Of a stretch of 64,000 nucleotides of DNA, positions 4,911 through 63,269 are shown one piece after another. Location: the NCBI GenBank assembly GCA_947568835.1, contig OX387612.1:9114001-9178000 (forward strand), read 5' to 3'. The position numbers and the translations under genes were made by a program. Origin of the DNA: Protonemura montana. Taxonomy: Eukaryota > Arthropoda > Insecta > Plecoptera > Nemouridae. Each line of letters starts with the position of its first letter. Positions within the stretch are counted from its first letter, which is position 1. A model generated the notes under the pieces. That model was given only the letters and a program-made list of their open reading frames with translations, did not search any database and had not been told where the DNA came from.

Positions 4911-5385
4911 GCTCTAGGTCAGGGTACCTGCTTAGTGCTATGGTGGTGCAAGTTAGTACGGTGCTACTGACAGTAACACCAGGGTTACGAATCACCGCTC
5001 TAGGTCGGGGTTACTGCTTGGTGCTATGGTGGTGCTAGTTAGCACGGTGTGCTACTGACAGTAATACCAGGGTTACGAATCACCGCTCTAGGTCGGGGTT
5101 ACTGCTTGGTGCTATGGTGGTGCTAGTTAGCACGGTGCTACTGACAGTAATACCAGGGCTATGAATCACCGCTCTAGGTCGGGGTTACTGCTTGGTGCTA
5201 TGGTGGTGCTAGTTAGCACGGTGCTACTGACAGTAATACCAGGGTTACGAATCACCGCTCTAGGTCGGGGTCACTGCTTGGTGCTATGGTGGTGCTAGTT
5301 AGCACGGTGCTACTGGCAGTAATACCAGGGTTACGAATCACCGCTCTAGGTCGGGGTTACTGCTTGGTGCTATTGTGATGCTCGT
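4911..5385. repeat. 86-bp tandem array, about 5.5 copies
   Basis: The start of GCTCTAGGTCGGGG recurs at about 4997, 5085, 5171, 5257 and 5343. The unit includes TTACTGCTTGGTGCTATGG, TGGTGCTAGTTAGCACGG and ACTGACAGTAATACC. The CCGCTCTAGGTCGGGGTTA core is shared with the 70-bp array at 19805-20095. Confidence 0.88.
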
Positions 5386-5706
5386 TGGCACTGTTCTGTT
5401 GTCATACTATTTTATAAAAAGACTACTTAAGCAACTACCACTGATTAAAAGGTTTTTGCCACAAACCTGTTGCGCTGGTTGCATCTTTGTGGGCGTGGTC
5501 TGTCCCATATCGCCCACGCCGTTGCCAGGGGTGACTATAAGTGGGCGTGTCGGAACCAGCTGTTGACTTGATGACGTCACCGAAATGTTGCCAGGTCGAA
5601 ACAGCGACGCCGCATGTTTTGGTTTGCGAGGCCCACGCTCGTGCTGGACTGCTAAATAACAGGGTTGCCAGATTGATCGATTTGTGGTTTGTAGCTTCGT
5701 AGCACT

Positions 5707-6344: not shown

Positions 6345-6855
6345 TTTATTTGTGGTGTTTAACGACGCACTGTTTTGACATCTGGTCATACGGCACTGGT
6401 CTTATGGCGTCGGTAAATGAGTGGATGATGATGAACCTAACCTAGCCTAGAAGGGAAGAGGGGATATCCGTAGTCGGCACGTAGCCTTCTCCTGTCGAAG
6501 AGCACCAAAGGGACCACCGGCTTAACGTCCCTTCCGAAGGACGGTACAACGTGAACAACAGGATTCGTTCACAAATCCATGCTGCCGAGAGGTTGATAAG
6601 CAAGGCGAGTGAAGTTGCTGTACTAACTTTCATCCCTCCAACTTCTCTCCCGAACAGAACTGGTCATGTGTGTGATGGTCACCCATCCTATACCTGTCTC
6701 AGCGCAGTGTTGCTTAACATTCATCCCTCCAACCTCTCTCCCAAACAGAACTGGTCATGTGTATGATGGTCACCCATCCAATACCTGACTCAGCGCAGTG
6801 TTGCTTAACTTCGGTGATCTCACGAGGACCAGTGTTTCCAACACGACAAACCATT
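6345..6855 (-). mobile_element. 5S-headed SINE, minus orientation, head partly duplicated
   Basis: The tail complement (GTGTTTAACGACGCACTG) lies near 6355, then the body, then two successive GACCAGTTCTG/head segments (6650-6715 and 6740-6855) ending in the complement of GGTCCTCGTGAGATCACC. The head duplication resembles that at 10088-10665 and 13915-14455. Confidence 0.75.
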
Positions 6856-6859
6856 CTGT

Positions 6860-7570
6860 TACGCATCTCTTTCAACTATGGACAACACCGTGAATCTCAA
6901 CATAGAGGGATGGGATCTTTAGAAGAATTTAAAAAATATTTTTTTTTTGGTAATTTGAGATCTCAAATGGTGTCAGGTTAAGAAAGGAGTTCCAGGCTGA
7001 AGAATATAGCTCGGAGCCAAAATAATCGATCTTAAAATGCATATCAGAGAATATCAAATACATTGATATTTGATGTCTTTAGATAGCGCATACACATTAG
7101 CGCTATCGTAGCATGCTTAAACAAGAATACCTTAAGCTGTTCATCGACTCCATGTGACCCTTGGGAAGTGTCACGACAGATCGTTGTTCATCACCCTGCC
7201 TCTGCCCGTACGATACCACATCGCCGCATCCAATGACGTCATGAGAACCACACCAACTGTCGGCTACAGCAAGCCGTGATGCCAGCGACTGCGTTGGGGT
7301 GAGGTGCCACCCCTAGTTGGGCTAGGCGCAGGGGGGGCTGACAAATTGATCGCTCCAACAAGCCGTGGGGGCACATCGATTAAGCCGTGGAACACAAAGG
7401 AACACGTTGATGGCCTGCTTGTGATAGCAAGGGTCTGGTGTGGGTGGTTGGGAATTCTGCTACATGGTAACACAGACATTGGGATCCAGCTAGTTTCTAG
7501 CCAGTCATCCTTCCAGGATACGGCATCATCAGCCTGTCATTCTTCAGGAGCAAATAGACTATTGCTGCAA
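6860..7570. other. Unassigned region, GC-richer second half
   Basis: 6860-7135 is AT-rich. 7140-7560 is GC-richer with open frames on both strands (for example 7264-7479 minus and 7304-7576 plus), but none shows a family signature or convincing splice context. Confidence 0.35.
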
Positions 7571-7571
7571 G

Positions 7572-8235
7572 GATAGCGCCAACACAGTGTGTCAAAGGGA
7601 CAAGGCTAAGCGGTGGCCGGTCCTTGGTGCTGTTGGACAGGAGCAGCCAACACAGTGTGTCAAAGTTACAAAGCTAAGCGGTGGCCGGTCCTTGGTGCTG
7701 TTGGACAGGAGCCGCCAACACAGTGTGTCAAAGGGACAAGGCTAAGCGGTGGCCGGTCCTTGGTGCTGTTGGACAGGAGCAGCCAACACAGTGTGTCAAA
7801 GAGACAAGGCTAAGCGGTGGCCGGTCCTTGGTGCTGTTGGACAGGAGCAGCCAACACAGTGTGTCAAACGGATAAGGCTAAGCGGTGGCCGGTCCTTGGT
7901 GCTGTTGGACAGGAGCAGCCAACACAGTGTGTCAAAGGGACAAGGCTAAGCGGTGGCCGGTCCTTGGTGCTGTTGGACAGGAGCAGCCAACACAGTGTGT
8001 CAACGGGATAAGGCTAAGCGGTGGCCGGTCCTTGGTGCTGTTGGACAGGAGCAGCCAACACAGTGTGTCAAAGGGACAAGGCTTAGCGGTGGCCGGTCCT
8101 TGGTGCTGTTGGACAGGAGCAGCCAACACAGTGTGTCAAAGGGACAAGGCCAAGCGGTGGCCGGTCCTTGGTGCTATTGGACAGGAGCAGACTGCGTGCT
8201 AGCACCGGGTTCACCCTAGGCTCCCTGCTAGGCTA
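7572..8235 (+). repeat. 68-bp satellite, array A, ending in SINE sequence
   Basis: About nine copies of CCAACACAGTGTGTCAAAGG, GACAAGGCTAAGCGGTGG, CCGGTCCTTGGTGCTGTTGG and ACAGGAGCAG. The last unit runs on into TGCGTGCTAGCACCGGGTT and CCCTGCTAGGCT, which is the continuation of the 5S-headed SINE body. The overlapping open frames are a by-product of a stop-poor unit. Confidence 0.9.
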
Positions 8236-9209: not shown

Positions 9210-9895
9210 AAGTCCTCTACATGTCCATGCAGTCCACCTAGGCTTCTTTCCAGCGGCGTGATGGGTGTTGTAACGCGGTCAGACAGGGCGGTAGTTTGAG
9301 GCTACATGTCCATGCAGTCCACCTAGGCTTCTTTCCAGCGGCGTGATGGGTGTTGTCACACGGTCAGACAGGGTGGTAGTTTGAGGCTACATGTCCATGC
9401 AGTCCACCTAGGCTCCTTTCCAGCGGGGTGATGGGTGATGTAACACGGTCAGACAGGGTGGTAGTTTGAGGCTACAAGTCCATGCAGTCCACCTAGGCTG
9501 CTTTCCAGCGGCGTGATGGATGTTGTAACACGGTCAGACAGGGTGGTAGTTTGAGGCTACATGTCCATGAAGTCCACCTAGGCTTCTTTCCAGCGGCGTG
9601 ATGGATGTTGTAACACGGTCAGACAGGGTGGTAGTTTGAGGCTACATGTCCATGCAGTCCACCTAGGCTCCTTTATATGGGCGTGATGGGTGTTGTCACA
9701 CGGTCAGACAGGGTGGTAGTTTGAGGCTACATGTCCATGCAGTCCACCTAGGCTTCTTTCCAGCGGCGTGATGGGTGTTGTAACACGGTCAGACAGGGTG
9801 GTAGTTTGAGGCTACATGTCCATGCAGTCCACCTAGGCTTCTTTCCAGGGGCGTGATGGGTGTTGTAACACGGTCAGACAGGGTGGTAGTTTGAG
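9210..9895. repeat. 85-bp tandem array, eight copies
   Basis: The unit contains ACATGTCCATGCAGTCCACC, TAGGCTTCTTTCCAGCGGCG, TGATGGGTGTTGTAACACGG and TCAGACAGGGTGGTAGTTTG. Copies start near 9218, 9303, 9388, 9473, 9558, 9643, 9728 and 9813 and differ at a few sites. Confidence 0.9.
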
Positions 9896-10087
9896 GGGTG
9901 TCTTCTCACGTGATAGATAGATCATGGCTGGATGTCACCAGCTAAATAGAATCACACCAACAAAGAGCAAACAGCTGACACGTTCCCAGCGCCTTCTAGC
10001 CTCCCGTCGCCTTCACTCGGCTACGCTCGGCTACGCTCGGCTCGCCAGTCAAACGAAGACAGTGGCGTCCTGCTGTTTATTCTTTCT

Positions 10088-10665
10088 TCGTTTGGCGTGT
10101 TGGAAATACTGGTTCTCATGAGATCACCGAAGTTAAGCAAAACTGCGCTGGGTCAGGTATTGGATGGGTGACCATCATACACATGATCAGTTCTGTTCGG
10201 TAGAGAGGTTGGAGGGTTGAAAGTTAAGCAACACTGCACTGGGTCAGGTATAGGATGGGTGACCATCATACACATGACCAGTTCTGTTCGGGAGAGAGGT
10301 TAAAGGGAAGAAAGTTGAGTAACACTGCGCTGGGTCAGGTATTGGATGGGTGACCATCATACACATGACCAGTTCTGTTCGGGAGAGAGTTTGGAGGGAT
10401 AAAAGTTAAGCAACACTGCTCTGAGTCAGGTATTAGATGGGTGACCATCATACACATGACCAGTTCTGTTCGGGAGAGAGGTTGGAGGGATAAAAGTTAG
10501 TACAGCAACTTCACTCGCCTTGCTTATCAACCTCTCGACAGCATGGATTTGTGGAGGAATCCTGTTGTTCGCGTTGTACCGTCTTTCGGAAGGGACCTTA
10601 AGCCAGTGGTCTCCTTTGTGAAGCGCTTAACTTCGGTGATCTTAGGAGAACTAACATGGCCGCCA
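10088..10665 (+). mobile_element. 5S-headed SINE with about four tandem head units
   Basis: After TTTGGCGTGTTGGAAATACTGG, given here in two parts TTTGGCGTGTTGG and AAATACTGG, the segment AAGTTAAGCA to GTTCGGGAGAGAGGTTGG is repeated about four times at a spacing near 100 bp. One body follows (CTTGCTTATCAACCTCTCG, GTACCGTCTTTCGGAAGG). The copy is truncated after AAGCCAGTGGTCTCC. Confidence 0.82.
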
Positions 10666-10739
10666 CTGGCGCTAAAAGATGCTCCTGACATATTATCGAC
10701 CTAGAGTCGTCTGGGTAGGTAGTCACACGCGTCATTAGC

Positions 10740-11935
10740 CTTGCCCTACCTTTTCTTGCCTTGCCTTGCCTTTCCTTGTCTTGCCTTGCCTTGCCTTGCC
10801 TTGCCCTACCTTTTCTTGCCTTGCCTTGCCCTGCCTTTCCTTGCCTTGCTTTGCCTTGCCTTGCCCTACCTTTCCTTGCCTTGCTTTGACTTGCCTTGCC
10901 TTGCCCTGCCTTTCCTTGCCTTGCCTTGCCCTGCCTTTCCTTGCCTTGCCTTGCCCTACCTTTTCTTGCCTTGCCTTGCCTTGCCTTGCCTTTCCTTGCC
11001 TTGCCTTGCCCTGCCTTTCCTTGCCTTGCCTTGCCCTGCCTTTCCTTGCCTTGCTTTGACTTGCCTTGCCTTGCCCTGCCTTTCCTTGCCTTGCTTTGAC
11101 TTGCCTTGCCTTGCCCTGCCTTTCCTTGCCTTGCTTTGACTTGCCTTGCCTTGACTTGCCTTGCCTTGCCTTGCCTTGCTTTGCCTTGCCCTGCCTTGCC
11201 TTACCTTTCCTTGCCTTGCCTTGCCTTGCCATGCCTTGCCCTGCCTTTCCTTGCCTTGCCTTGCCTTGCCTTGCCTTGCCTTGCCTTGCCTTGCCTTGCT
11301 TTGCCTTGCCTTGCCTTGCCTTGCCTTGCCTTGCCTTGCCTTGCCTTGCCTTGCCTTGCCTTGCCTTGCCTTGCCTTGCCTTGCCTTGCCTTGCCTTGCC
11401 TTGCCATGCCTTGCCTTGCCTTGCCTTGCCTTGCCTTGCCTTGCCTTCTTGCCTTGCCTTGCCTTTCCCTGCCTTTCCTTGCCTTGCTTTGCCTTGCCTT
11501 GCCTTGCCTTGCCTTGCCTTGCCTTGCCTTGCCTTGCCTTGCCTTGCCTTGCCTTGCCTTGCCTTGCCTTGCTTTGCCTTGCCTTGCCTTGCTTTGCCTT
11601 GCCCTGCCTTGCCTTACCTTTCCTTTCCTTGCCTTGCCTTGCCTTGCCTTGCCTTACCTTGCCTTGCCTTGCCTTGCCTTGCCTTGCCTTGCCTTGCCTT
11701 GCCTTGCCTTGCCTTGCTTTGCCTTGCCTTGCCTTGCTTTGCCTTGCCCTGCCTTGCCTTACCTTTCCTTGCCTTGCCTTGCCTTGCCTTGCCTTGCCTT
11801 ACCTTGCCTTGCCTTGCCTTGCCTTGCCTTGCCTTGCCTTGCCTTGCCTTGCCTTGCCTTGCCTTGCCTTGCCTTGCCTTGCCTTGCCTTGCCTTGCCTT
11901 GCCTTGCCTTGCCTTGCCTTGCCTTGTCTCGCCTT
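10740..11935. repeat. Pentanucleotide satellite (CCTTG)n, about 1.2 kb
   Basis: About 240 copies of TTGCC/CCTTG. Variants (TTTCC, CTACC, TTGAC) cluster in the first half, and the run is nearly pure from about 11240 on. No phase contains a stop codon on either strand, which makes long Leu/Ala/Pro/Cys frames (plus) and Arg/Gln/Gly/Lys frames (minus). These frames are not evidence of protein. Confidence 0.95.
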
Positions 11936-13635: not shown

Positions 13636-16158
13636 CGTCTTTGTTCATCGCTGCCAGGAAGCACTTGTGCAGCCGGCACGCTCTGCACTGATTCCGATGT
13701 GTTTTGTCGATGGGGCAACGCCCTTTAGACTCGCCGGCAGCCTTGCAGGTGTAAACACGATTTCGATGGATACTACGTTTGAAGAAACCGGAGCATCCTG
13801 GGGGAAAAAGATGGCCACCGATTATTAACTGGAAAAGAAAAGAAAAGAAGAAAAGAAAGAAAAGAAAGACGCAAAAAATGCATAGAAGATCTTAATAATA
13901 TATCCAATCTCTACCTTAAACGCAAACAACAGGATTCCTCCACAAATCCGTGCTGTCGAGAGGTTGATAAGCAATGCGAGTGAAGTTGCTGTACTAACTG
14001 TCATCCCTCCAACCTCTCTCCCAAACAGAACTGGTCATTTGTATGATGGTCACCCATCCAATACCTGACCCAGCGCAGTGGTGCTAAACTTTCTTCCTTC
14101 CAACCTCTCTCCCGAACAGAACTGGTCATGTGTATGATGGTCATCCATCCAATACCTGACTCAGCGTAGTGTTTCTAAACTTTCTTCCTTCCAACCTCTC
14201 TGCCGAACAGAACTGGTCATGTGTATGATGGTCATCAATCCAATACAAGACCCAGCAAGTGTTGCTTAACTTTCATCCCTCCAACCTCTCTCCCGAACAG
14301 AACTGGTCATGTGTATGATGGTCACCCAACCATGAACCAATACCTGACCCAGCGCAGTGTTGCTTAACTTTCATCCCTCCAACCTCTCTCCCGAACAGAA
14401 CTGGTCATGTGTATGATGGTCACCCAACCAATACCTGACTCAGCGCAGTGTTGCTTAACATGTTTTATTGTAACTTTGATTGTGAATGAAAAGGGTACTC
14501 ACCATCACAGCTGTAGATGCCGTAGTGTTTTCCAGAGCTTCGGTCCCCACACACCTTGCAGGGGATATCTAGCAGTCGGTCGCCTGGAAGGAAATCCAAG
14601 ACGGTAAAGACATCTTAAGAAAAGAAGTGTTATTATAGTCTACCTCTAAAGCTCACGAGCATCAATTTTTCTAATAATATGACCATTAATTGTTTATGGA
14701 ACATGTGTTCAGTCAGAATTGTTTGATTAGGCTGCGTTGTCGAATGTTTTGCTTTGTGTTGCGATTATATTTGTATTTAATTTAATTGTTTGATTGTTGT
14801 GTTTAACGACGCACTGTTTTGACAACGGTTCATGTGGCACTGGTCTAATGGCGTCGGTGAATGAGTCGGTGAACAGAGCCTAGAAGAGAAGTGGTGAAAT
14901 TCGTTGCCGGCACTTATAACCTACTCCTGTCGAATAAACTTAATTTAAACAAGGGCTGAAGATCACATTAATTTTTAATGATTTTCTGCTATTTTGAAAG
15001 TTTAAAAAGAAGATAATTACATCAAATTCTGAAAAATAATTAATCAAGAAATTTATATTCAAATCAAATGTGGTATAATTCAAGAAGGCGCTGTTCTGTC
15101 ACGTCAAACAAAATGCATTTTGTGGCTGTTAATATTTTCTTCTTGTGCGAATCTCCGCTTAACATTTGAACTAGGATAAATAAAAGTTCAAACTTTTAAC
15201 TTCTCATCAAATTAAAAGAAAATAGTCCAAAAAAAAACCGTAACCTAATTCTATATCACAAAATAAATCCCCTTTGATTAAATTTCTGTATTTCTTTATT
15301 TTGTTTCACGTGTTTTGCCTGAATTTACTTGCTTGCCGTTTGAAAAATATCAATGATTTAGAGAATATCGAACCTTGACTCGAAGACCGAATTTAAACTA
15401 AGTTTAGCCGGATGCTGGTGATATATTTTCCTATTCTAAAGATGCAAGACATGATGGCTATCGCATATTATGAGATTAGGTTATCTTTCCACTGGAAAAA
15501 AAGGTACAGAATCGAATCCCGGGGCTTATTGTTGAAAGAACTAAGCGGATTTCTACACGAATTTCCAAAAATAAGTGGTGAACGAGCGTTAAAAATTAAA
15601 AGTACGTGCGAAAATTTTCAAAACTAAACGAATTATTGTGTAAATCACTGATATTTTAAGAAAAGTCAGCTATTTTGATGGAAAATGTAAAATTTGGATT
15701 TATTTTTCTACCAACGGCATGAGTTTTTTTTGTACAGGTCACCAATAAAAACCTAAAAATGAAAAAATTTGAATGTAAATAAAATTAAAAAATGTACAAT
15801 TTTTACATATAATTTTATAATAAGTATAATTTATTTAAAAACTACAGTAAAATTCATCTTCACTGACTAATGTTTTAGGACACCATGCCCATGATTATAA
15901 AATTCAGTGGAAAAACTCGCCAAAAGTAATTGCAGTGAAATCCAAAAAAGCCAAAATAAACACCAAAATAACCGAAATTTTAACAAACAGATAAAATCAC
16001 ATCTAGGTTCAATAAAAACATGCCAACTTTATGTTGAAATCCAAATTTCCTTTGCCTCACTTTTCACCTCCAACAAACAGCAACGCTCCTCCCACAACAC
16101 AACAACAGGCACACACACACATCACAGGCACCAGAATACACTTCCTACCTGTCCCCAT
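13636..16158 (-). CDS. Nuclear receptor, NR2E2/dissatisfaction-like (DNA-binding domain; 3' part not found)
   Basis: Three phase-matched exons: 16149-16158 (ATG GGG ACA G), 14503-14583 and 13636-13797; 84 codons in all. The product starts [17 protein letters not shown]. Finger 1 uses Cys 12, 15, 29 and 32; finger 2 uses Cys 48, 58, 68 and 71. The P-box CDGCSGFF, with Asp and Ser where most receptors have Glu and Lys, and [11 protein letters not shown] mark the NR2E group. Nine residues separate the first two Cys of finger 2, against five in most receptors, which together with [13 protein letters not shown] and KRSIHRNR points to the NR2E2 (Drosophila dsf) branch. The protein should bind DNA in the nucleus as a transcription regulator. 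The short start is chosen because it gives the N-terminus I recall for dsf; the frame is open further upstream. The hinge and ligand-binding domain were not found and are probably beyond the left edge or in unrecognised exons. A 54-bp satellite begins about 155 bp upstream of the ATG. Confidence 0.85.
13823..13872. repeat. GAAAA/GAAA microsatellite in receptor intron 2
   Basis: Repeats of AAAAG and AAAGA, a simple-sequence tract about 25 bp upstream (on the minus strand) of the acceptor of the third exon; the intervening bases still give a CCCCCAG acceptor. Confidence 0.75.
13915..14455 (-). mobile_element. 5S-headed SINE with about five tandem head units, in receptor intron 2
   Basis: Body complement at 13915-14040, then repeats of CCAACCTCTCTCCCGAACAG, AACTGGTCATGTGTATGATG, GTCACCCA and ATACCTGACCCAGCG at a spacing near 95-100 bp. 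It fills most of the intron between the two zinc-finger exons. Confidence 0.8.
14584..16148. other. Receptor intron 1, with SINE tail fragment
   Basis: A truncated SINE tail on the minus strand (GTTTAACGACGCACTG to CTACTCCTGTCG) lies at 14800-14940. The rest is AT-rich with no convincing exon; a 71-codon plus frame at 15412-15627 has no recognised motif. Confidence 0.5.
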
Positions 16159-16313: not shown

Positions 16314-19300
16314 TACAAAGTCTAGCCTGTGAGAGAAGATACCAGCACAAGGACTGTCCCCAGCATTGCTACAGTCTAGCCCGTGAGAGAAGATACCAGC
16401 ACAAGGACTGTCCCCTGCATTGCTACAGTCTAGCCTGTGAGAGAAGATACCAGCTCAGGGACTGTCCCCAGCATTGCTACAGTCTAGCCCGTGAGAGAAG
16501 ATACCAGCACAAGGACTGTCCCCTGCATTGCTACAGTCTAGCCCGTGAGAGAAGATACCAGCACAAGGACTGTCCCCTGCATTGCTACAGCATAGCCCGT
16601 GAGAGAAGATACCAGCACAAGGACTGTCCCAGCATTGCTACAGTCTAGCCCGTGAGAGAAGATACCAGCACAAGGACTGTCCCCAGCATTGCTACAGTCT
16701 AGCCCGTGAGAGAAGATACCAGCACAAGGGCTGTCCCCTGTATTGCTACAGTCTAGCTCGTGAGAGAAGATACCAGCACAAGGACTGTCCCAGCATTGCT
16801 ACAGTCTAGCCCGTGAGAGAAGATACCAGCACAAGGACTGTCCCCAGCATTGCTACAGTCTAGCTCGTGAGAATAGATACCAGCACAAGGACTGTCTCAG
16901 CATTGCTACAGTCTAGCCCGTGAGAGAAGATACCAGCACAAGGACTGTCCCCAGCATTGCTACAGTCTAGCCCGTGAGAGAAGATACCAGCACAAGGGCT
17001 GTCCCCTGTATTGCTACAGTCTAGCCCGTGAGAGAAGATACCAGCACAAGGACTGTCCCCAGCATTGCTACAGTCTAGCCCGTGAGAGAAGATACCAGCA
17101 CAAGGACTGTCCCCTGCAGTGCTACAGCATAGCCCGTGAGAGAAGATACCAGCACAAGGACTGTCCCAGCATTGCTACAGTCTAGCCCGTGAGAGAAGAT
17201 ACCAGCACAAGGACTGTCCCCAGCATTGCTACAGTCTAGCCCGTGAGAGAAGATACCAGCACAAGGACTGTCCTCAGCATTGCTACAGGCTAGCCCGTGA
17301 GAGAAGATACCAGAACAAGGACTGTCACCTGCATTGTTACAGTCTAGCCCGTGAGAGAAGATACCAGCACAAGGACTGTCCCCTGCATTGTTACAGTCTA
17401 GCTCGTGAGAGAAGATACCAGCACAAGGACTGTCTCAGCATTGCTACAGTCTAGCCCGTGAGAGAAGATACCAGCACAAGGACTGTCCCCAGCATTGCTA
17501 CAGTCTAGCCCGTGAGAGAAGATACCAGCACAAGGGCTGTCCCCTGTATAGCTACAGTCTAGCCCGTGAGAGAAGATACCAGCACAAGGACTGTCCCCAG
17601 CATTGCTACAGTCTAGCCCGTGAGAGAAGATACCAGCACAAGGACTGTCCTCAGCATTGCTACAGGCTAGCCCGTGAGAGAAGATACCAGCACAAGGGCT
17701 GTCACCTGCATTGCTACAGTCTAGCCTGTGAGAGAAGATACCAGCACAAGGACTGTCCCCTGCATTGCTACAGTCTAGCCTGTGAGAGAAGATACCAGCA
17801 CAAGGACTGTCCCCTGCATTGCTACAGCATAGCCCGTGAGAGAAGATACCAGCACAAGGACTGTCCCAGCATTGCTACAGTCTAGCCCGTGAGAGAAGAT
17901 ACCAGCACAAGGACTGTCCCCAGCATTGCTACAGTCTAGCCCGTGAGAGAAGATACCAGCACAAGGACTGTCCTCAGCATTGCTACAGGCTAGCCCGTGA
18001 GAGAAGATACCAGAACAAGGACTGTCACCTGCATTGTTACAGTCTAGCCCGTGAGAGAAGATACCAGCACAAGGACTGTCCCCTGCATTGTTACAGTCTA
18101 GCCCGTGAGAGAAGATACCAGCACAAGGACTGTCCCCAGCATTGCTACAGTCTAGCCCGAGAGAGAAGATACCAGCACAAGGACTGTCCCCTGCATTGCT
18201 ACAGTCTAGCCCGTGAGAGAAGATACCAGCACAAGGACTGTCCCCAGCATTGCTACAGTCTAGCCCGTGAGAGAAGATACCAGCACAAGGACTGTCCTCA
18301 GCATTGCTACAGGCTAGCCCGTGAGAGAAGATACCAGAACAAGGACTGTCACCTGCATTGTTACAGTCTAGCCCGTGAGAGAAGATACCAGCACAAGGAC
18401 TGTCCCCTGCATTGTTACAGTCTAGCTCGTGAGAGAAGATACCAGCACAAGGACTGTCTCAGCATTGCTACAGTCTAGCCCGTGAGAGAAGATACCAGCA
18501 CAAGGACTGTCCCCAGCATTGCTACAGTCTAGCCCGTGAGAGAAGATACCAGCACAAGGGCTGTCCCCTGTATTGCTACAGTCTAGCCCGTGAGAGAAGA
18601 TACCAGCACAAGGACTGTCCCCAGCATTGCTACAGTCTAGCCCGTGAGAGAAGATACCAGCACAAGGACTGTCCTCAGCATTGCTACAGGCTAGCCCGTG
18701 AGAGAAGATACCAGCACAAGGGCTGTCACCTGCATTGCTACAGTCTAGCCTGTGAGAGAAGATACCAGCACAAGGACTGTCCCCTGCATTGCTACAGTCT
18801 AGCCTGTGAGAGAAGATACCAGCTCAGGGACTGTCCCCAGCATTGCTACAGTCTAGCCCGTGAGAGAAGATACCAGCACAAGGACTGTCCCCTGCATTGC
18901 TACAGTCTAGCCCGTGAGAGAAGATACCAGCACAAGGACTGTCCCCTGCATTGCTACAGCATAGCCCGTGAGAGAAGATACCAGCACAAGGACTGTCCCA
19001 GCATTGCTACAGTCTAGCCCGTGAGAGAAGATACCAGCACAAGGACTGTCCCCAGCATTGCTACAGTCTAGCCCGTGAGAGAAGATACCAGCACAAGGAC
19101 TGTCCTCAGCATTGCTACAGGCTAGCCCGTGAGAGAAGATACCAGAACAAGGACTGTCACCTGCATTGTTACAGTCTAGCCCGTGAGAGAAGATACCAGC
19201 ACAAGGACTGTCCCCTGCATTGTTACAGTCTAGCCCGTGAGAGAAGATACCAGCACAAGGACTGTCCCCAGCATTGCTACAGTCTAGCCCGAGAGAGAAG

Positions 19301-19665
19301 ATACCAGCACAAGGACTGTCCCCTGCATTGCTACAGTCTAGCCCGTGAGAGAAGATACCAGCACAAGGACTGTCCCCTGTATTGCTACAGTCTAGTCCGT
19401 GAGAGAAGATACCAGCACCAGGACTGTCCCCTGCATTGCTACAGTCTAGCCCGTGAGAGAAGATACCAGCAGAAGGACTGTCCCCTGCATTGCTACAGTC
19501 TAGCCCGTGAGAGAAGATAACAGCACAAGGACTGTCCCCAGCATTGCTACAGTCTAGCCCGTGAGAGAAGATACCAGCACAAGGAATGTCCCCTGCATTG
19601 CTACAGTCTAGCCCGTGAGAGAAGATACCAGCACAAGGAATGTCCCCTGCATTGCTGCAATCGTT
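16314..19665. repeat. 54-bp satellite, about 62 copies
   Basis: The unit contains TAGCCCGTGAGAGAAGATAC, CAGCACAAGGACTGTCCCC and AGCATTGCTACAGTC. Variants recur in blocks: for example, the set with GTCCTCAGCATTG, ACAGGCTAGCCC, CAGAACAAGGAC and TGTCACCTGCATTG appears near 17271, 17978, 18295 and 19108, which is higher-order structure. Several units lack one C (53 bp). In one plus frame 54 bp gives an 18-residue repeat (with RERRYQHKDCP), kept open only until the first 53-bp unit near 16625. Confidence 0.95.
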
Positions 19666-20439: not shown

Positions 20440-20905
20440 TAGAAGAGAAGAGAAAAAAAATCGGTGCCGGCATGTAGCCTACTCCTGTCGAAGAGCATCA
20501 AGGGGACCACCGGCTTAACTTGTCTTCCTAAGGATGGTACAACTCAAACAACAGGATTCCTCCACAAATCCGTGCTGTCGTGAGGTTGATAAGCAAGGCG
20601 AGTGAAGTTGCTGTACTAACTTTCATCCCTCCAACCTATCTCCCGAACAGAACTGGTCATGTGTATGATGGTCAACCATCCAATACCTGACTCAGCGCAG
20701 TGTTGCTTAACTTTCATCCCTTCAACCTCTCTCCCGAACAAAACTGGTTATGTGTATAATGGTCAGCCATCCAATACCTGACTCAGCGCAGTGTTGCTTA
20801 ACTTTCATCCCTCCAACCTCTCTCCCGCACAAAACTGGCTATGTGTATAATGGTCAACCATCCAATACCTGACTCAGCGCAGTGTTGCTTAACTTTGATA
20901 ATATC
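20440..20905 (-). mobile_element. 5S-headed SINE, minus orientation, with tandem heads
   Basis: Body complement (CGGTGCCGGCATGTAGCC) near 20460, then three head segments with AACTGGTCATGTGTATGATG variants. 20200-20440 just before it is unassigned. Confidence 0.78.
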
Positions 20906-21464: not shown

Positions 21465-22735
21465 GCAGGAGCAATGGTGAAGTCTGTCAGTTAGAATGGC
21501 CGAACACACAGCTGTCTTGCAACATTAACCCATAAGAACAATGGTGAAGTCCACCAGTTAGAATGGCCGACCATACAGTTGTCTTGAAACATTAACCCTT
21601 AAGAGCAATGGTGAAGTCCACCAGTTAGAATGGCCGAACACACAGCTTACTTGCAACATTTACCCATAAGAGCAATGGTGAAGTCCACCAGTTAGAATGG
21701 CCGAACACACAGCTGGCTTGCAACATTAACCTATAATAGCAATGGTGAAGTCCACCAGTTAGAATGGCCGAACACACAGCTGGCTTGCAACATTAACCCA
21801 TAAGAGCAATGGTGAAGTCCACCATTTAAAATGGCCGAACACACAGCTGGCTTGCAACATTAACCTATAATAGCAATGGTGAAGTCCACCAGTAAGAATG
21901 GCCGAACACACAGCTTACTTGCAACATTAACCCATAAGAACAATGGTGAAGTCTGTCAAGTTAGAATGGCCGACCACACAGCTGTCTTGCAACATTAACC
22001 CATAAGAGCAATGGCAAAGTCAACCAGTTTAAATGGCCGAACACACAGCTTACTTGCAACATTAACCTATAAGAACAATGGTGAAGTCTGTCAAGTTAGA
22101 ATGGCCGACCACACAGCTGTCTTGCAACATTAACCCATAAGAGCAATGGTGAAGTCCACCATTTAAAATGGCCGAACACACAGCTTACTTGCAACATTAA
22201 CCTATAAGAACAATGGTGAAGTCCACATGTTAGAATGGCCGACCACACAGCTGTCTTGCAACATTAACCCATAAGAGCAATGATGAAGTCCACCAGTTAG
22301 AATGGCCGACCACACAGCTGTCTTGCAACATTAACCCATAAGAGCAATGGTGAAGTCCACCAGTTAGAATGGCCGACCACACAGCTGTCTTGCAACATTT
22401 ACCCATAAGAGCAATGGTGAAGTCCACCAGTTAGAATGGCCGACCACACAGCTGTCTTGCAACATTAACCCATAAGAGCAATGGTGAAGTCCACCAGTTA
22501 GAATGCCCGACCACACAGCTGTCTTGCAACATTAACCCATAAGAGCAATGGTGAAGTCCACCAGTTAGAATGGCCGATCACACAGCTGTCTTGCAACATT
22601 TACCCATAAGAGCAATGGTGAAGTCCACCAGTTAGAATGGCCGATCACACAGCTGTCTTGCAACATTAACCTACAAGAGCAATGGTGAAGTCCACCATTT
22701 AAAATGGCCGAACACACAGCTTTTTTGCATGATCT
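21465..22735. repeat. 67-bp tandem array, about 19 copies
   Basis: The unit contains GAGCAATGGTGAAGTCCACC, AGTTAGAATGGCCGACCACA, CAGCTGTCTTGCAACATTAA and CCCATAA. Variants (AACACACAGCTTACTTGC; CATTTAAAATGG; GTCTGTCAAGTTAG) recur as alternating blocks in the first two thirds; the last third is more uniform. Confidence 0.93.
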
Positions 22736-23104: not shown

Positions 23105-23815
23105 CAACGGTAATTAGGAGGTATCTAATGACGTCGGTGATAGAGAGGATGATGATGAAGATGATGATAAACATAACCTAGCCTAGAAGTTAGGAGGGGA
23201 AACCCGGTGTTGGCACGTAGCCTACTCCTGTCGAAGAGCACCAAGGGAACCACCGGTTTAACGTCCCTTCCGAAGAACGGTACAACGCGAACAACAGGAT
23301 TCCTCCACAAATTCATGCTGTCGAGAGGTTGATAAGCAAGGCGAGTGAAGTTGCTGTACTAACTTTCATCCCTCCAGCCTCTCTCCCTAACAGAACTGGT
23401 CATGTGTATGATGGTCATCCATCCAATACCTGACCCAGCGCAGTGTTGCTTAACTTTCATCCCTCCAGCCTCTCTCCCGAACAGAACTGGTCATGTGTAT
23501 GATAGTCACCCATCCAATACCTGACCCAGCGCAGTGTTGCTGAACTTTCATCCCTCCAACCTCTCTCCCGTACAGAACTGGTCATGTGTATGATAGTCAC
23601 CCATCCAATACCTGACCCAGCGCAGTGTTGCTTAACTTTCATCCCTCCAACCTCTCGAATGAACAGCACTGGTCATGTGTATGATGGTCACCCATCCAAT
23701 ACCTGACCCAGCGCAGTGTTGCTTAACTTTCATCCCTCCAATCTCTCTCCCGAACAGAACTGGTCATGTGTATGATGGTCACACATCCAATTCCTGACAC
23801 AGCGCAGAACCTGAA
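23105..23815 (-). mobile_element. 5S-headed SINE with about five tandem heads, minus orientation
   Basis: Near-complete body (GATGATGATGAAG, CCTAGCCTAGAAG, CGTCCCTTCCGAAG) followed by repeated units of TTTCATCCCTCCAACCTCTC, AGAACTGGTCATGTGTATGA and CCTGACCCAGCGCAGTG at a spacing near 93 bp. Confidence 0.82.
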
Positions 23816-24429
23816 ATTCTAGCACTTCATATTTAACTTTCATCTTAATTTGTTCATAAGAGAAAGAAAGTCTAAAAAAAGGATCCGTTGCTTTTGCATT
23901 TGGCATCCGACTCCAAGAAAGCGTCGACCTAGGCCTCTTTTATTGCTCGAAAGCCGATGAGGCAGATCAATCCTTCCCCACTCCCCCTCACGCCATTTAA
24001 CCCAGGCACTGGGATCAACGCAGCCGTGGCCGATGACGGTGCAAATCGAGCTCGGGATTAAGAGATCAAGTCAGGGATGCTGCGAGCACGTGTACACACT
24101 CTCAGAGGCAGTGAGTTGACTCGAAATGGAGAATAGAGATCACTTTATTCGAAAGAATGGTTAAGACTAGAGCTTGATCTAAATTAAATTAATATTTGAG
24201 GCTCCTGCCAGTAACTAGATTTAAAAAAAAAAGACAATATATCGATACTGAACATTAAATTCTAGAGTTAAAACCTATTTTCACGGTCTGATAATTAAAC
24301 ATAACCTCAAACAGTAAATAACATTGATATAAGTACACTCAAGTTTTGCTAATAAAGCGCAAATAATATTGTTCGGCTCAACCATGGCTTTCCAAACGTT
24401 TCAAAGCTTCAAGCAACCCTTCAAGCAAC
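23816..24429. other. Unassigned spacer
   Basis: Mostly AT-rich; no exon, tRNA or repeat recognised, apart from a start of the 50-bp motif (TTCAAGCAACC doubled) at 24410-24430. Confidence 0.4.
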
Positions 24430-26910
24430 CATGATGTTGTCCAGCTCAAGACATGGTTTGCCAAACGAGGCTTGCAGTCCATGCTGTTGTCCAGCTCAAG
24501 GCATGGCTTGCCAAACAAAGCTTGCAGTCCATGCTGTTGTCCAGCTCAAGACATGGCTTGCCAAACAAAGCTTGCAGTACATGCTGTTGTCCAGCTCAAG
24601 ACATGGCTTGCCGAACAAAGCTTGCAGTCCATGCTGTTGTCCAGCTCAAGGCATGGCTTGCCAAACAAAGCTTACAGTCCATGCTGTTGTCCAGCTCAAG
24701 ATATGGCTTGGCAAACAAAGCTTGCAGTCCATGCTGTTGTCCAGCTCAAGACATGGCTTGCCAAACAAAGCTTGCAGTCCATGCTGTTGTCCAGCTCAAG
24801 ACATGGCTTGCCAAACAAAGCTTGCAGTCCATGCTGTTGTCCAGCTCAAGACATGGCTTGCCAAACAAAGCTTGCAGCCCATGCTGTTGTCCAGCTCAAG
24901 ACATGGCTTGCCAAACAAAGCTTGCAGTCCATGCTGTTGTCCAGCTCAAGACATGGCTTGCTAAACAAAGCTTGCAGTCCATGCTGTTGTCCAGCTCAAT
25001 ACATGGCTTGCCAAACAAAGCTTGCAGTCCATGCTGTTGTCCAGCTCAAGACATGGCTTGCTAAACGAGGCTTGCAGTCCATGCTGTTGTCCAGCTCAAG
25101 ACATGGCTTGCCAAACAAAGCTTGCAGTCCATGCTGTTGTCCAGCTCAAGACATGGCTTGCCAAACAAAGCTTGCAGCCCATGCTGTTGTCCAGCTCAAG
25201 ACATGGCTTGCCAAACAAAGCTTGCAGTCCATGCTGTAGTCCAGCTCAAGACATGGCTTGCTAAACGAGGCTTGCAGTCCATGCTGTTGTCCAGCTCAAG
25301 ACATGGCTTGCCAAACAAAGCTTGCAGTCCATGCTGTTGTCCAGCTCAAGACATGGCTTGCCGAACAAAGCTTGCAGTCCATGCTGTTGTTCAGCTCAAG
25401 ACATGGCTTGCTAAACGAGGCTTGCAGTCCATGCTGTTGTCCAGCTCAAGACATGGCTTGCCAAACAAAGCTTGCAGTCCATGCTGTTGTCCAGCTCAAG
25501 ACATGGCTTGCCAAACAAAGCTTGCAGCCCATGCTGTTGTCCAGCTCAAGACATGGCTTGCCAAACAGAGCTTGCAGTCCATGCTGTAGTCCAGCTCAAG
25601 ACATGGCTTGCCAAACGAAGCTTGCAGTCCATGCTGTTGTCTAGCTCAAGGCATGGCTTGCCAAAACGAGGCTTGCAGTCCATGCTGTTGTCCAGCTCAA
25701 GACATGGCTTGCCAAACAAAGCTTGCAGTCCATGCTGTTGTCCAGCTCAAGGCATGGCTTGCCAAACAAAGCTTGCAGTCCATGCTGTAGTCCAGCTCAA
25801 GACATGGCTTGCCAAACAAAGCTTGCAGTCCATGCTGTTGTCCAGCTCAATGCATGGCTTGGCAAACAAAGCTTGCAGTCCATGCTGTTGTCCAGCTCAA
25901 GACATGGCTTGCCAAACAAAGCTTGCATTCCATGCTGTTGTCCAGCTCAAGACATGGCTTGCCAAACAAAGATTGCAGTCCATGCTGTTGTCCAGCTAAA
26001 GACATGGCTTGCCAAACAAAGCTTGCAGTCTATGCTGTTGTCCAGCTCAAGGCATGGCTTGCCAAACAAAGCTAAAGTCCATGCTGTTGTCCAGCTAAAG
26101 ACATGGCTTGCCAAACAAAGCTTGCAGTCCATGCTGTTGTCCAGCTCAAGGCATGGCTTGCCAAACAAAGCTTGCAGTCCATGCTGTAGTCCAGCTCAAG
26201 ACATGGCTTGCCAAACAAAGCTTGCAGTCCATGCTGTTGTCCAGCTCAATGCATGGCTTGGCAAACAAAGCTTGCAGTCCATGCTGTTGTCCAGCTCAAG
26301 ACATGGCTTGCCAAACAAAGCTTGCAGTCCATGCTGTTGTCCAGCTCAAGACATGGATTGCCAAACAAAGATTGCAGTCCATGCTGTTGTCCAGCTAAAG
26401 ACATGGCTTGCCAAACAAAGCTTGCAGTCTATGCTGTTGTCTAGCTTAAGACATGGCTTGCCAAACAAAGCTTGCAGCCCATGCTGTTGTCCAGCTCAAG
26501 ACATGGCTTGCCAAACAAAGCTTGCAGCCCATGCTGTTGTCCAGCTCAAGACATGGCTTGCCAAACAAAGCTTGCAGTCGATGCTATTGTCCAGCTCAAG
26601 ACATGGCTTGCCAATTAAAGCTTGCAGTCCACGCTGTTGTCCAGCTCAAAACATGGCTTGCCAAACAAAGCTTGCAGCCCATGCTGTTGTCCAGCTCAAG
26701 ACATGGCTTGCCAAACAAAGCTTGCAGCTCATGCTGTTGTCCAGCTCAAGACATAGCTTGCCAAACAAAGCTTGCAGTCTACGCTATTGTCCAGCTCAAG
26801 ACATGGCTTGCCAAACAAAGCTTGCAGTCCACGCTGTTGTCCAGCTCAAGACATGGCTTGCCAAACAAAGCTTGCAGTCCACGCTGTTGTCCAGCTCAAG
26901 ACATGGTTCC
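24430..26910. repeat. 50-bp satellite, about 50 copies
   Basis: The unit contains CCATGCTGTTGTCCAGCTCA, AGACATGGCTTGCCAAACAA and AGCTTGCAGT. The consensus has no stop in any forward phase, so all three frames are open for hundreds of codons and repeat every 50 residues (150 bp). The longest runs 25723-27042, through the array end. No splice or start context suggests translation. A one-base insertion near 25665 and a short deletion near 26072 shift the phase. Confidence 0.95.
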
Positions 26911-28327: not shown

Positions 28328-29185
28328 ACAGTGCCAACACAGTGTGTCAAAGGGACAAGGCTAAGCGGTGGCCGGTCCTTGGTGCTGTTGGACAGGAGCA
28401 GCCATAACAGTGTGTCAAAGGGACAAGGCTAAGCGGTGGCCGGTCCTTGGTGCTGTTGGACAGGAGCAGCCATCACAGTGTGTCAAAGGGACAAGGCTAA
28501 GCGGTGGCCGGTCCTTGGTGCTGTTGGACAGGAGCAGCCATCACAGTGTGTCAAAGGGACAAAGCTAAGCGGTGGCCGGTCCTTGGTGCTGTTAGACAGG
28601 AGCAGCCAACACAGTGTGTCAAAGGGACAAGGCTAAGTGGTGGCCGGTCCTTAGTGCTGTTGGACAGGAGCAGCCAACACAATGTTAAAGGGATGAGGCT
28701 AAGTGGTGGCCGGTCCTTGTTGCTGTTGGACAGAAGCAGCCAACACAGTGTGTCAAAGAGACAAGGCTAAGCGGTGGCCGGTCCTTGGTGCTGTTGGACA
28801 GGAGCAGCCAACACAGTGTGTCAAAGGGACAAGGCTAAGCGGTGGCCGGTCCTTGGAGCTGTTGGACAGGAGCAGCCAACACAGAGTGTCAAAGTGACAA
28901 GGCTAAGCGGTGGCCGGTCCTTGGTGCTGTTGGACAGGAGCAGCCAACACAGTGTGTCAAAGTGACAAGGCTAAGCGGTGGTCGGTCCTTGGTGCTGTTG
29001 GACAGGATCAGCCAACACAGTGTGTCAAAGGTACAATGCTAAGCGGTGGCCGGTCCTTGGTGCTGTTGGACAGGAGCAGCCAACACAGTGTGTCAAAGAG
29101 ACAAGACCAAGCGATGGCCGGTTCTTGGAGCTGTTGGACAGGAGCAGGCTGTTTGCCGGCGCCGGGTTCACCCTCAACTGGCAAA
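28328..29185 (+). repeat. 68-bp satellite, array B, ending in SINE sequence
   Basis: About twelve copies of the unit of array A. The last unit is followed by GGAGCAGGCTGTTTGCCGG and CGCCGGGTTCACCCTC, again the continuation of the SINE body, as in array A. One unit near 28680 is a few bases short. Confidence 0.9.
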
Positions 29186-30394: not shown

Positions 30395-31415
30395 AAAGCT
30401 TCGAGCATCGCTCATCAACCTCTCGACAGCATGGATTTGTGGAGAAATCCTGTTGTTCGCGTTGTACCGTCCTTCGGAAGGGACGTTAAGCTAATGTCCT
30501 TCTTCGACTGGACTTGAGTCTGCGTGCCAAGACCGGGATTACCCCCGGTTGCCTGCCAGGCCAAACTAGGTTCACTATTACCCTGTCATTCACCGACAGC
30601 CAATAAACCAGTGCCACAGGAGCAGCCAACACAGTGTGTCAAAGTGACAAGGCCAAGCGGTGGCCGGTCCTTGGTGCTGTTGGACTGGAGCAGCCAACAC
30701 AGTGTGTCAAAGTGACAAGGCTAAGCGGTGGCCGGTCCTTGGTGCTGTTGGACAGGAGCAGCCAACACAGTGTGTCAAAGTGACAATGCTAAGCGGTGGC
30801 CGGTCCTTGGTGCTGTTGGACAGGAGCAGCCAACACAGTGTGTCAAAGGGACAAGGCTAAGCGGTGGCCGGTCCTTGGTGCTGTTGGACAGGAGCAGTCA
30901 ACACAGTGTGTCAAAGTGACAAGGCTAAGCGGTGGTCGGTCCTTGGTGCTGTTGGACAGGAGCAGCCAACACAGTGTGTCAAAGGGACAAGGCTAAGTGG
31001 TAGCCGGTCCTTGGTGCTGTTGGGCAGGAGCAGCCAACACAGTGTGTCAAAGTGACAAGGCTAAGCGGTGGCCGGTCCTTGGTGCTGTTGGACAGGAGCA
31101 GCCAACACAGTGTGTCAAAGAGACAAGGCTAAGCGGTGGCCGGTCCTTGGTGCTGTTGGACAGGAGCAGCCAACACAGTGTGGCAAAGTGACAAGGCTAA
31201 GCGGTGGCCGGTCCTTGGTGCTGTTGGACAGGAGCAGCCAACACAGTGTGTCAAAGGGACAAGGCTAAGCGGTGGCCGGTCCTTGGTGCTGTTGGACAGG
31301 AGCAGCCAACACAGTGTGTCAAAGAGACAAGGCTAAGCGGTGTCTGGTCCTGACAGGCCAGGTTAGCTTTATCTTCAGGCGATCATTCACCGATAGTCAA
31401 TAGACCCGCTATAAA
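30395..31415 (+). repeat. SINE body fragment and 68-bp satellite, array C
   Basis: A SINE body piece (TCATCAACCTCTCGACAGC, ACCGTCCTTCGGAAGG) lies at 30408-30490 and SINE-tail-like sequence (CATTCACCGACAGCCAATAA, ACCAGTGCCACAGG) at 30588-30620. About eleven 68-bp units follow (30620-31340), then another SINE-tail-like stretch (GGCCAGGTTAGC, CATTCACCGATAGTC). The array thus sits inside SINE-derived sequence. Confidence 0.85.
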
Positions 31416-32285: not shown

Positions 32286-35200
32286 ATGATGGATGGGAAT
32301 AAAGACGAAGCTGACAGGTGTATTGAATATGCAGAAAAGTTTGTGACTGAAGGAAACTTTGACAAAGCCGAGAAATTTCTTCAAAAAGCGGAGAGATTGT
32401 TTCCTTCACAGCGAGCGAAAGGTAGGCTTGTCATTCTAACCTGTGTCCAACGTCATGGAACCATTTCACATGACTATTGCCTCATCTGTGTGCCTTTGCG
32501 ATTAAGCTGCAAACATTACTAACTGCTCTTAAAAAATGTTTAATCTTCTTTTTTTTCTGCAGACCTTCTCGAAGTTGTTGGCCTGAATGCAACGACAGCT
32601 TCTGAATCCGAAGAAAATGTTCGGAAACGAAGACCGCAAGCTTCATCGCCTACAGGTAATCTTAATGACTGTGTTACACTCTCAATCAAAAGCCGCAATT
32701 AATAACCATCTCTGATAACTAGATGATTATCTGAGTGACTGTTTCTAGGTCAATTTTTAATACACATCATAGGGCCAATGTAGGTAGGTAATGGAACTTC
32801 ATCATTGCCAACTGAAATGCTTGCGTTTAGACTAAAGTGCTTCAGAATGAAAGCATATCCTAAGGGTTTTTGCAATGTTTGGAATCTCAAATCATGTTAC
32901 TGTTTTTTTTTAATACTGCTGTCACATGAAAGGTAAATATGTATGAGGATTGCAAAAAACTGTAAGTTCTAAAGAAGTACCCATTTTTTCAAATCCTTTC
33001 TGTCCTTAAGATTCCCACAGCTACCTACGCAGCTGTAAAAATAGCCAGTGTTAGATCAAGTACAGCTTGGATAAGAAATTAATGTTGAAAGAAACTTCGA
33101 CTTGAACAATTCTTGTTAATTAACTTAACTAGTCTCTATACCGAACAGTTTGATGTGTTGGAAACACCAGTTCGTTAGATCACCCAAGTCAAGCAACACT
33201 GCGCTGAGTCAGGTACTGGATGGGTGACCATCATACACATGACCAGTTCTGTTTGGGAGAGAGGTTGGAGGAATGAAAATCAGTACAGCAACTTCACTCG
33301 CCTTGCCTATCAATCTCTCGACAGCATGGATTTGTGGAGGAATCCTGATGTTCGCATTGTACCGTCCTTCGGAAGGAACGTTAAGCCGGTGGTCCCCTTG
33401 GTCTTCGATAGGAGTTGGCTATGTGCCAGCACTGGGTTACTTCTCCTTTCTAGGCTAGATTAGGTTCATCATCATCTACTCAATCACCGACGCCATTAGA
33501 CCAGTACCACACGGCCAGATGTCAAAACAGTGCGTCGTTAAACACCACAAATCAATCAATCAACTAGTCTATGAAACCAAATTCTCAGAAACTTGAGGCC
33601 TGACATTTCTTTGCAATCTTGGTTCTGGTAAAATTGCAACTATCATACAGTATTTTGTGAATAGGAACGTCAAATATGTAGAAGAGCTAATTCTTAAGTT
33701 CTGCTTCCCCTGATATGTATGTCATTCAGGAGTAACGACTGTTGTGACAAATGAATCCATTTCACAGAAAAATTGTTGATATTTTTCAAAGAATACCAAG
33801 AAATTTCAAAGAGTTGTCGTGTTTGCAGCGACCCGTAAAGAAGCACCGGCGCCGCCACCAGAAAAGGAGTACAGTTCCGAACACCTGGCGGCCGTGCGAA
33901 GGATCAAGACTTGCAAGGATTACTATGAAATCTTGGGGGTCAGCAAGGATGCGACAGACAGCGACTTGAAGAAAGCGTACAAGAAACTGGCGCTGCAACT
34001 TCATCCAGACAAGAACACTTGTCCTGGATCAGGAGAAGCATTTAAAGGTTTGTACATTATTCTGTATCTATGATTAAAATGGTCTTGTAACGAGTTTCTG
34101 CTGGTGGCCAGTCCTTGGTGCTGTTGGACATGAGCAGCCAACACAGTGTGTCAAAGGGACAAGGCTAAGCGGTGGCTGGTCCTTGGTGCTGTTGGACATG
34201 AGCAGCCAACAAAGTGTGTCAAAGGAACAAGGCTAAGCGGTGGCCGGTCCTTGGTGCTGTTGGACAGGAGCAGCCTACACAGTGTGTCAAAGGGACAAGG
34301 CTAAGCGGTGCCCATTCCTTGGTGTTGTTGGACAGGAGCAGCCAACACAGTGTGTCAAAGGGACAAGGCTAAGCGGTGGCCAGTCCTTGATGCTGTTGGA
34401 CAGGAGCAGCCAACACAGTGTGTCAAAGGGACAAGGCTAAGCGGTGGTCGGTCCTTGGTGCTGTTGGACAGAAGCAGCCAACACAGTGTGTCAAAGTGAC
34501 AAGGCTAAGCGGTGGGCGGTCCTTAGTGCTGTTGGACAGGAGCAGCCAACACAGTGTGTCAAAGGAACAAGGCTAAGCGATGGCCGGCCCTTGGTGCTGT
34601 TGGACAGGAGCAGCCGACACAGTGTGTCAAAGGAACAAGGCTAAGCGGTGGCCGGTCCTTGGTGCTGTCGAAGGGAACTAGTCTGTTTGCTGGGTTTCAA
34701 TTTTATCTCAAATCCCTTAAGCCTCTCATTAAACCTAACCTCATTGTATTTTTGGTGTGCTTGGTTACAGCGATTGGCAATGCGGTGGCCGTACTCACAG
34801 ACCCGGAGAAGAGGAAGCAGTACGACGTGTACGGCTCGGACGAAGACAGGATGAGCAACGCGCATTCGAGGCACAGTCACACTCGTCAACACAACTACAC
34901 AAGAGGTTTCGAGGGTATGTGCCACGTCGTAATGCATCGTTGGTAGCTTAGCTGGTTTTTGTATCTTAAGATTTTTAAAACATGAGAATTTACTGTGGTG
35001 AAGAAGGAAAGAGAGAGAAAGGAATTGGCGTAGCGTGGTGCTCTTGTTGAGAAGTAAGTAGAGATCTCAAGAATTCAGGCGTCGAGTTGAGTTGGCCGTT
35101 GTTATTGCTTGAGAAGTACCAGTGAAACGGTTAACAATCGGTCAGAACTTCTTTAACGATAAAATTGGCAACTCGTTGAAATTGTGGAATTTCTGAAAAT

Positions 35201-43752: not shown

Positions 43753-63269
<19,517 letters not shown>

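Follow-up and report, generated by a model that had tools for sequence, protein, structure and literature searches.

In Drosophila, circles and ectopic conversion have dispersed the euchromatic 1.688 and Rsp-like satellites. Satellites and variable-number tandem repeats (VNTRs) that derive from SINEs include Hy/Pol III of Hydromantes, Satellite 1 of Xenopus and a B1-derived VNTR of the mouse, according to the section of PMC9659126 that treats them. SVA/LAVA elements are given as hominoid-specific in the corresponding part of PMC4432496, and introners are reported, in the portion of PMC9860276 that covers their distribution, from two groups only among animals and land plants, both of them animal.

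Here we analyse a 68-bp tandem repeat that forms four arrays in the window, by which we mean the whole 64-kb stretch of DNA under study, and that recurs at dozens of places, introns among them, in a genome of 258.5 Mb in 34 contigs. Among the matches listed by a search of open-licence PubMed Central articles, none concerned the 68-bp unit or a two-piece 5S-SINE satellite, which is weak evidence of absence. SINE-derived satellites are already known; the point that we consider new is the pattern in which the arrays appear younger than the sequence that flanks them.

The 68-bp unit and its parent SINE

TRF finds one 68-bp unit, in a common orientation throughout the window, in array A (7578..8190, + strand; 9.0 copies, 95% matches), array B (28333..29147, +; 12.0 copies), array C (30616..31351, +; 10.8 copies) and array D (34103..34668, +; 8.3 copies). 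Array A, which is entry L001 of the genome-wide set, shows 2.0% mismatch to the unit in a wraparound alignment. The longest run of the unit, as judged from overlapping matches among the best 40 of 882 candidates, extends for about 3.3 kb on contig C13; classical satellite DNA, by comparison, consists of very long and typically heterochromatic arrays. The hits scored in the three genome searches lie mostly on contigs C12-C15, which may reflect a chromosomal bias or the searches themselves. Other arrays of medium size share the window according to TRF, at 16319-19656 (54-bp unit), 24429-26906 (50 bp), 21469-22729 (67 bp), 9217-9896 (85 bp) and 4911-5391 (86 bp), as does a GCCTT pentamer array of 240 copies at 10738-11935.

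The parent element carries a 5S rRNA-like head, the feature by which a 5S-derived SINE is recognised, and we take it to be of the SINE3 type. SINEs of that type are mobilised by LINEs, and their marks are a 3' end in common with a partner LINE and target-site duplications. Across the whole window Rfam returns 5S and tRNA matches and no other families at gathering score, and eight 5S matches above that score mark such heads. The near-complete copy that serves as the family reference for this element, SINE-A (44960..45390, +), comprises a 5S-like head (Rfam 5S, 55.6 bits), a body and a 3' end. A second copy, of the 3' part (49018..49337, +), is among the 17 copies from which a 320-bp consensus of the SINE 3' region was built. 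The window also holds tRNA-like copies on both strands (532-607, 812-887, 48191-48263, 50527-50599, 50606-50678 and 53610-53685); ARAGORN assigns Ser and Thr to four of the tRNA-like copies, and tRNA-derived repeats are possible.

Comparison with the SINE consensus confirms, at the level of sequence alignment, that the 68-bp unit fuses about 50 bp of SINE body and about 18 bp of SINE 3' end, two pieces that are not adjacent in the parent. The body part scores 26 against the consensus, with a maximum of 17.5 over 500 shuffles, and the segment F, a stretch of about 110 bp that borders the arrays and was initially written by eye, scores 65 (maximum of 500 shuffles, 25.5). When body, F and tail are placed in linear order, the resulting unit+F sequence aligns with the SINE consensus from end to end at a score of 96, which none of 500 shuffles reached (maximum 24), and 75.5% of the alignment columns are identical, gaps included. 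The unit is therefore a fusion of the SINE 3' end to mid-body from which the intervening segment F is absent. The tail part alone scores 10, a chance-level value reached by 85 of 500 shuffles, and is assigned to the SINE tail because it is contiguous with F.

The preliminary description had proposed a unit assembled from two separate pieces of a SINE, to be given up if identity to the SINE were no better than chance. Its body piece holds on its own score, its tail piece does not and stands only through contiguity with F. Homology of the monomer to a SINE beyond chance, which defines a SINE-derived tandem repeat, was found for unit+F and for the body; chance similarity is ruled out by the shuffles, the tail piece alone excepted. 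The SINE and unit motifs quoted in that description are present as well, with 46 and 7 matches at no more than three mismatches, array units included, where shuffles lead one to expect 0.00.

Other parts of the SINE are also found in tandem. Within SINE-A copies, a 91-bp segment containing the 5S-derived head is itself present two to five times in tandem (TRF: 6624-6809, 10130-10499, 13995-14459, 20617-20896 and 23360-23807). On contig C4, near 25.377 Mb, a locus fetched via F1 (the SINE segment that continues the body) contains a 46-bp tandem array derived from F1 itself (L019:1355-1761; 8.8 copies, 94% matches). Taken with the 68-bp tail-body arrays, these head and F1 arrays indicate that one SINE has yielded tandem repeats from at least three of its parts. 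A separate 52-bp array at L019:167-846 (13.1 copies) has a unit that looks tRNA-like by eye.

SINE edges and the relative age of the arrays

Three genome searches, in which the best 40 of 882, all 21 of 21 and the best 40 of 41 candidates were scored, yielded 65 loci, and ten with no array longer than 60 bp were dropped (L013, L019, L023, L030-L035 and L064). With the window counted in, there were 63 array hits, which represent 56 distinct entries; two of these entries are the two units of the single locus L048. By origin, 46 entries lie in flank-fetched loci, seven in array-fetched loci and three in the window, and four sit in loci fetched by their left flank but differ from the array searched. 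Because 46 of the 56 are in flank-fetched loci, the rate of SINE edges among them is not an unbiased one. Edge scores are read against shuffled flanks given the same choice of offsets (108 per side), with maxima of 13.5 on the left and 16 on the right; real sequence taken at least 700 bp away scores above these maxima in 3 of 40 cases on the left and 1 of 43 on the right.

Within the window, array A is preceded by F2, the body-to-tail part of the SINE (7524..7577, +), which is strongly decayed, with 14/56 mismatches, and which other loci match as far as the array and into it. To its right the SINE body continues as F1 (8191..8235, +), and the two edges score 36 and 35. Array B runs into F1 on the right (29148..29175, +; score 23), and its left flank looks weaker yet lies above the null (25.5). 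At array C the SINE body passes through F into the array on the left (30410..30615, +; score 135), and SINE tail-side sequence follows on the right (31352..31406, +; score 19.5). Array D (scores 0 and 4.5) shows no SINE above the null at either edge, and neither does L006. Most readable array edges in the genome-wide set run into SINE, as is characteristic of SINE-derived repeats. The preliminary description had A and B running out into the SINE body, which is what their right edges show, and their left edges proved to be SINE-tail-like too; it had also placed SINE-tail-like sequence beside C, where we find it on the right, with SINE on both sides.

Genome-wide alignment of array edges with the SINE, a check that the same description had suggested, places SINE above the shuffle maximum on the left in 46 of the 54 entries readable there and on the right in 42 of 54, out of 56 entries in all. 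That description was to be given up if arrays elsewhere lacked SINE at their edges, and most of the edges examined do have it. On the side that had played no part in the search, loci found by their right flank have SINE at 10 of 13 left edges, and those found by their left flank have it at 22 of 30 right edges. Array-found loci, array A being one of the seven, have SINE at four left and five right edges, and window arrays B-D at two of three on each side. The locus architecture can be written F-[unit]n-F, with outer ends that are ragged on both sides.

Across 43 arrays of at least 300 bp, mean mismatch to a single genome-wide consensus is 3.7%. The majority base is that of the global consensus at all positions in 31 of these arrays and at all but one in the other 12, nine of which differ at a single common site. 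The flanks are more diverged, at 11.7% for alignable F2 (35 loci) and 12.5% for alignable F1 (36 loci). Monomers at these loci differ by 3.4%, a figure that is biased low by its restriction to exact 68-bp monomers and stands at 3.7% unfiltered; a paired Wilcoxon test of flanks against monomers gives 4.5e-7 for F2 and 5.8e-11 for F1. Flank and array divergence show no significant correlation (rho -0.10, 0.26). Over a broader sample of 44 left flanks, column variation averages 18% and affects all but one of 56 columns; this is an upper figure, since truncated copies align poorly at the far end, where six of the ten columns with more than 25% variation lie. Such variation looks like decay rather than subfamilies. 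In arrays of at least eight units, divergence amounts to 8.4% for the terminal half-unit on the right and 4.5% for that on the left, compared with about 3% in the interior.

Judged by these divergence values, the arrays seem younger than the SINE remnants around them. A control that is only partly clean is provided by five SINE-A copies with the 91-bp head array, in which the array is 3.8-5.7% diverged and the body 3.9-10.7%, the body being more diverged in three of the five, by 1.7-2.3 times. Some difference between array and body therefore arises without 68-bp seeding. The contrast between 68-bp arrays and their flanks, about 3.4 times, exceeds that of the control, and the 68-bp arrays also have their consensus in common; part of the contrast may be general. 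Divergence levels are unequal among the 43 arrays (chi2 156, df 42); the idea that longer arrays are younger did not reach significance (rho -0.21, p 0.17).

Variation within the unit is concentrated. Unit columns are unevenly variable, by 9.4 times the binomial value, and, site 21 aside, variation in any one column affects at most 10.2% of 450 monomers. Position 21 coincides with the fusion point and is a possible mutational hotspot; it reads G in 251 monomers, T in 153, A in 44 and C in 2. At least two of its alleles, each present at least twice, occur in 26 of the 43 arrays, where they are intermixed along the array; neighbouring units are alike in 265 of 445 cases, against 261.5 expected.

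Arrays in introns

Candidate exon pairs were identified through their splice motifs and open frames, and a subset chosen by eye was submitted to Pfam; an amino-acid coding score of the flanking ORFs did not serve as a cut-off, and ranking, splice-pair reading and Pfam took its place. In 7 of 10 joined exon pairs a domain above the Pfam cut-off spans the junction: kinase at L012, SIS at L014, fascin at L045, ADAMTS at L055, malate/lactate dehydrogenase at L052, MBF2, an arthropod family, at L038, and DnaJ at array D of the window. The intron of this last gene (34048..34770, +) contains array D, and the DnaJ domain runs over the spliced junction. At L053 a Fringe domain crosses the junction below the cut-off, the pairs at L060 and L056 returned no Pfam domain, and the joined L060 exons were without a match in the PDB. 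Ten exons were read on a single side only, with two above the Pfam cut-off (Ras at L044 and Arrestin_C at L040), three below it (L021, L046 and L020) and five others without a match.

Both ends could be called for 11 introns, including that of a second L055 array; in eight of the ten submitted to Pfam a domain crosses the junction, L053 being the one of these eight below the cut-off. Once the element is set aside, these introns retain 30, 37, 59, 60, 64, 65, 71, 85, 106, 157 and 237 bp. Insertion of arrays into short introns explains most of the intron data, and some introns may have an introner-like origin. Putative donors read GTGAGTTC beside F-derived sequence in the left flanks of L012, L020, L047 and L065, a hint of a shared 5' end; the L047 and L065 exons have no confirmed Pfam match.

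Origin and spread of the unit

Both fusion points, tail-to-body and body-to-tail, are common to all 43 arrays of at least 300 bp, so that one founding rearrangement suffices, and the birth of the unit looks, from these shared junctions, like one ancestral event. Un-amplified forms survive as a single unit in the order F-unit-F at L044 (decayed) and L050 and as unit-F-unit-F at L048, and at L010 a 5S-like head is followed by body, F, five units and F. The preliminary description had suggested that the satellite was born from a rearranged or dimeric SINE and that SINE dimers with a tail-to-body junction should be sought. Such dimers exist at L044, L050 and L048, and the suggestion is borne out by a unit that runs from 3' end to body and by flanks that represent the intervening SINE in register.

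We propose that, in a SINE dimer or tandem, the 3' end of one copy came to be joined to the mid-body of the next. This would give a repeat of about 178 bp (unit plus F), from which F could then have been lost between short similar stretches, GGACAGGAGCAG in the body and GGGACAGC in the tail, and the loss would leave the 68-bp chimeric unit, ready for tandem growth. We infer this path from dimer through F loss to tandem growth; the step-like forms themselves are observed. Subsequently, multi-unit blocks from a common pool may have been copied into older SINE-dimer seeds, some of them intronic, by extrachromosomal circles, break-induced copying or ectopic conversion via unit homology. Copying of this kind would be expected to preserve the likeness of dispersed arrays even as the SINE at their edges decays. 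Local neutral turnover should have given each array its own consensus, and without turnover the monomers should equal the flanks in age; the arrays show neither pattern, and our reading is that of a common pool. On balance, then, we think that the arrays probably consist of a SINE-dimer-born unit of which pooled blocks were copied onto older SINE-dimer seeds, the copying being the step that we infer. A further extension strikes us as unlikely, namely that a SINE-born minisatellite exists as a roaming population, homogenised genome-wide, whose multi-unit blocks time and again re-colonise old genic SINE-dimer footprints and which in some genes builds whole introns and splice sites; if true, it would represent an intron-building satellite in an animal.

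Other origins can account for parts of these data. In an SVA-like, VNTR-composite retrotransposon, a head-F-[unit]n-F transcript from a 5S-type promoter would have been inserted whole. A sense 5S-like head does lie 52-182 bp upstream of the array at L010, L011, L026 and L052, with none in sense downstream within 182 bp; a SINE-like 3' end can be made out by eye past the right flank of L042, L048 and L050; and SINE-A itself has the 91-bp internal VNTR. Yet the upstream head within 182 bp at L004 is antisense, upstream heads at all distances divide into 16 sense and 19 antisense, and arrays at 3.4% divergence between flanks at 11.7-12.5% do not look like parts co-inserted at the same age. The ends of array loci are also ragged on both sides, and no signal of target-site duplication emerges at 52 loci, where the mean shared word is 4.63 versus 4.44 and 28 of 300 shuffles reach the observed value, decayed ends weakening this test. 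We consider such a cassette doubtful. Sense insertions of an introner-like SINE/satellite composite, with splice sites supplied by the element, would instead have created the host introns. The small non-element content of the 11 introns (30-237 bp, with just 30 and 37 bp in two) speaks for this, as does the position of the element 0, 7, 9 and 9 bp from the acceptor in L062, L044, L040 and L056 and 2 and 4 bp from the donor in L045 and L020; F1, moreover, resembles a pyrimidine tract plus CAG. However, seven of the 11 introns hold the element in sense and four in antisense, the residues of 59-106 bp match ordinary short introns (those at array D and L052 amount to 157 and 237 bp), and the exons lack a Pfam match at L062 and L056, while one at L020 falls below the cut-off. 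An introner-like origin of these introns seems to us rather improbable.

Birth and amplification independently at each SINE dimer would fit flanks that are local SINE copies and the existence of un-amplified dimers, but it has very little probability in our estimation. It is disfavoured by a consensus that 31 of the 43 arrays match exactly and the other 12 miss by a single difference, and by a three-allele site common to the arrays. The unit also appears younger than its flank, and arrays younger than the adjoining SINE would not have grown independently at each locus. Purifying selection might instead hold the unit constant, for instance if its DNA or RNA serves as a binding motif; array interiors that are more conserved than the flanks, together with uneven column variation, accord with this. 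Low divergence extends over nearly the whole unit, though, with no free positions at flank level, and right terminal half-units decay, and we give selection scant credence as the explanation.

This family offers a measurable case in which dispersed arrays remain similar as their own edges decay. One genome retains likely steps from SINE to satellite, in the form of the parent, the un-amplified dimer and the amplified array. Concerted evolution of dispersed tandem repeats, whether by circles, conversion or transposition, becomes testable here, as the age of each array can be set against that of the SINE on either side.

The 68-bp family shares with the Drosophila 1.688/Rsp-like satellites its dispersed short arrays at sites with unit homology, and it differs in that its presumed landing sites are SINE-dimer footprints. 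Its monomer comes from a SINE, as do those of Hy/Pol III, Xenopus Satellite 1 and the mouse B1 VNTR in the section of PMC9659126 that describes them. Unlike those repeats, to the extent of that section, the 68-bp unit fuses two SINE parts and has the skipped segment flanking its arrays, which are short and dispersed, and its parent SINE is 5S-headed. Dispersed, short, satellite-like arrays with constant flanking modules are likewise found in the Cg_HINE Helentrons of the Pacific oyster, as portrayed in part of PMC7492417, whereas the flanks of the 68-bp arrays are SINE and their ends ragged. Helentrons and HINEs are typified by subTIRs and a 3' palindrome. Like introners, in the passages of PMC9860276 that characterise them, the 68-bp arrays place repeat copies in introns, some of them up to the splice sites; unlike introners as portrayed there, they occur in both gene orientations and are of SINE origin. 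Finally, SVA/LAVA resembles the 68-bp loci in that SINE-related parts surround a VNTR, within what the pertinent part of PMC4432496 relates. The 68-bp loci differ from that account in having neither a target-site duplication signal nor a constant 3' end, and in an array that appears younger than its flanks.
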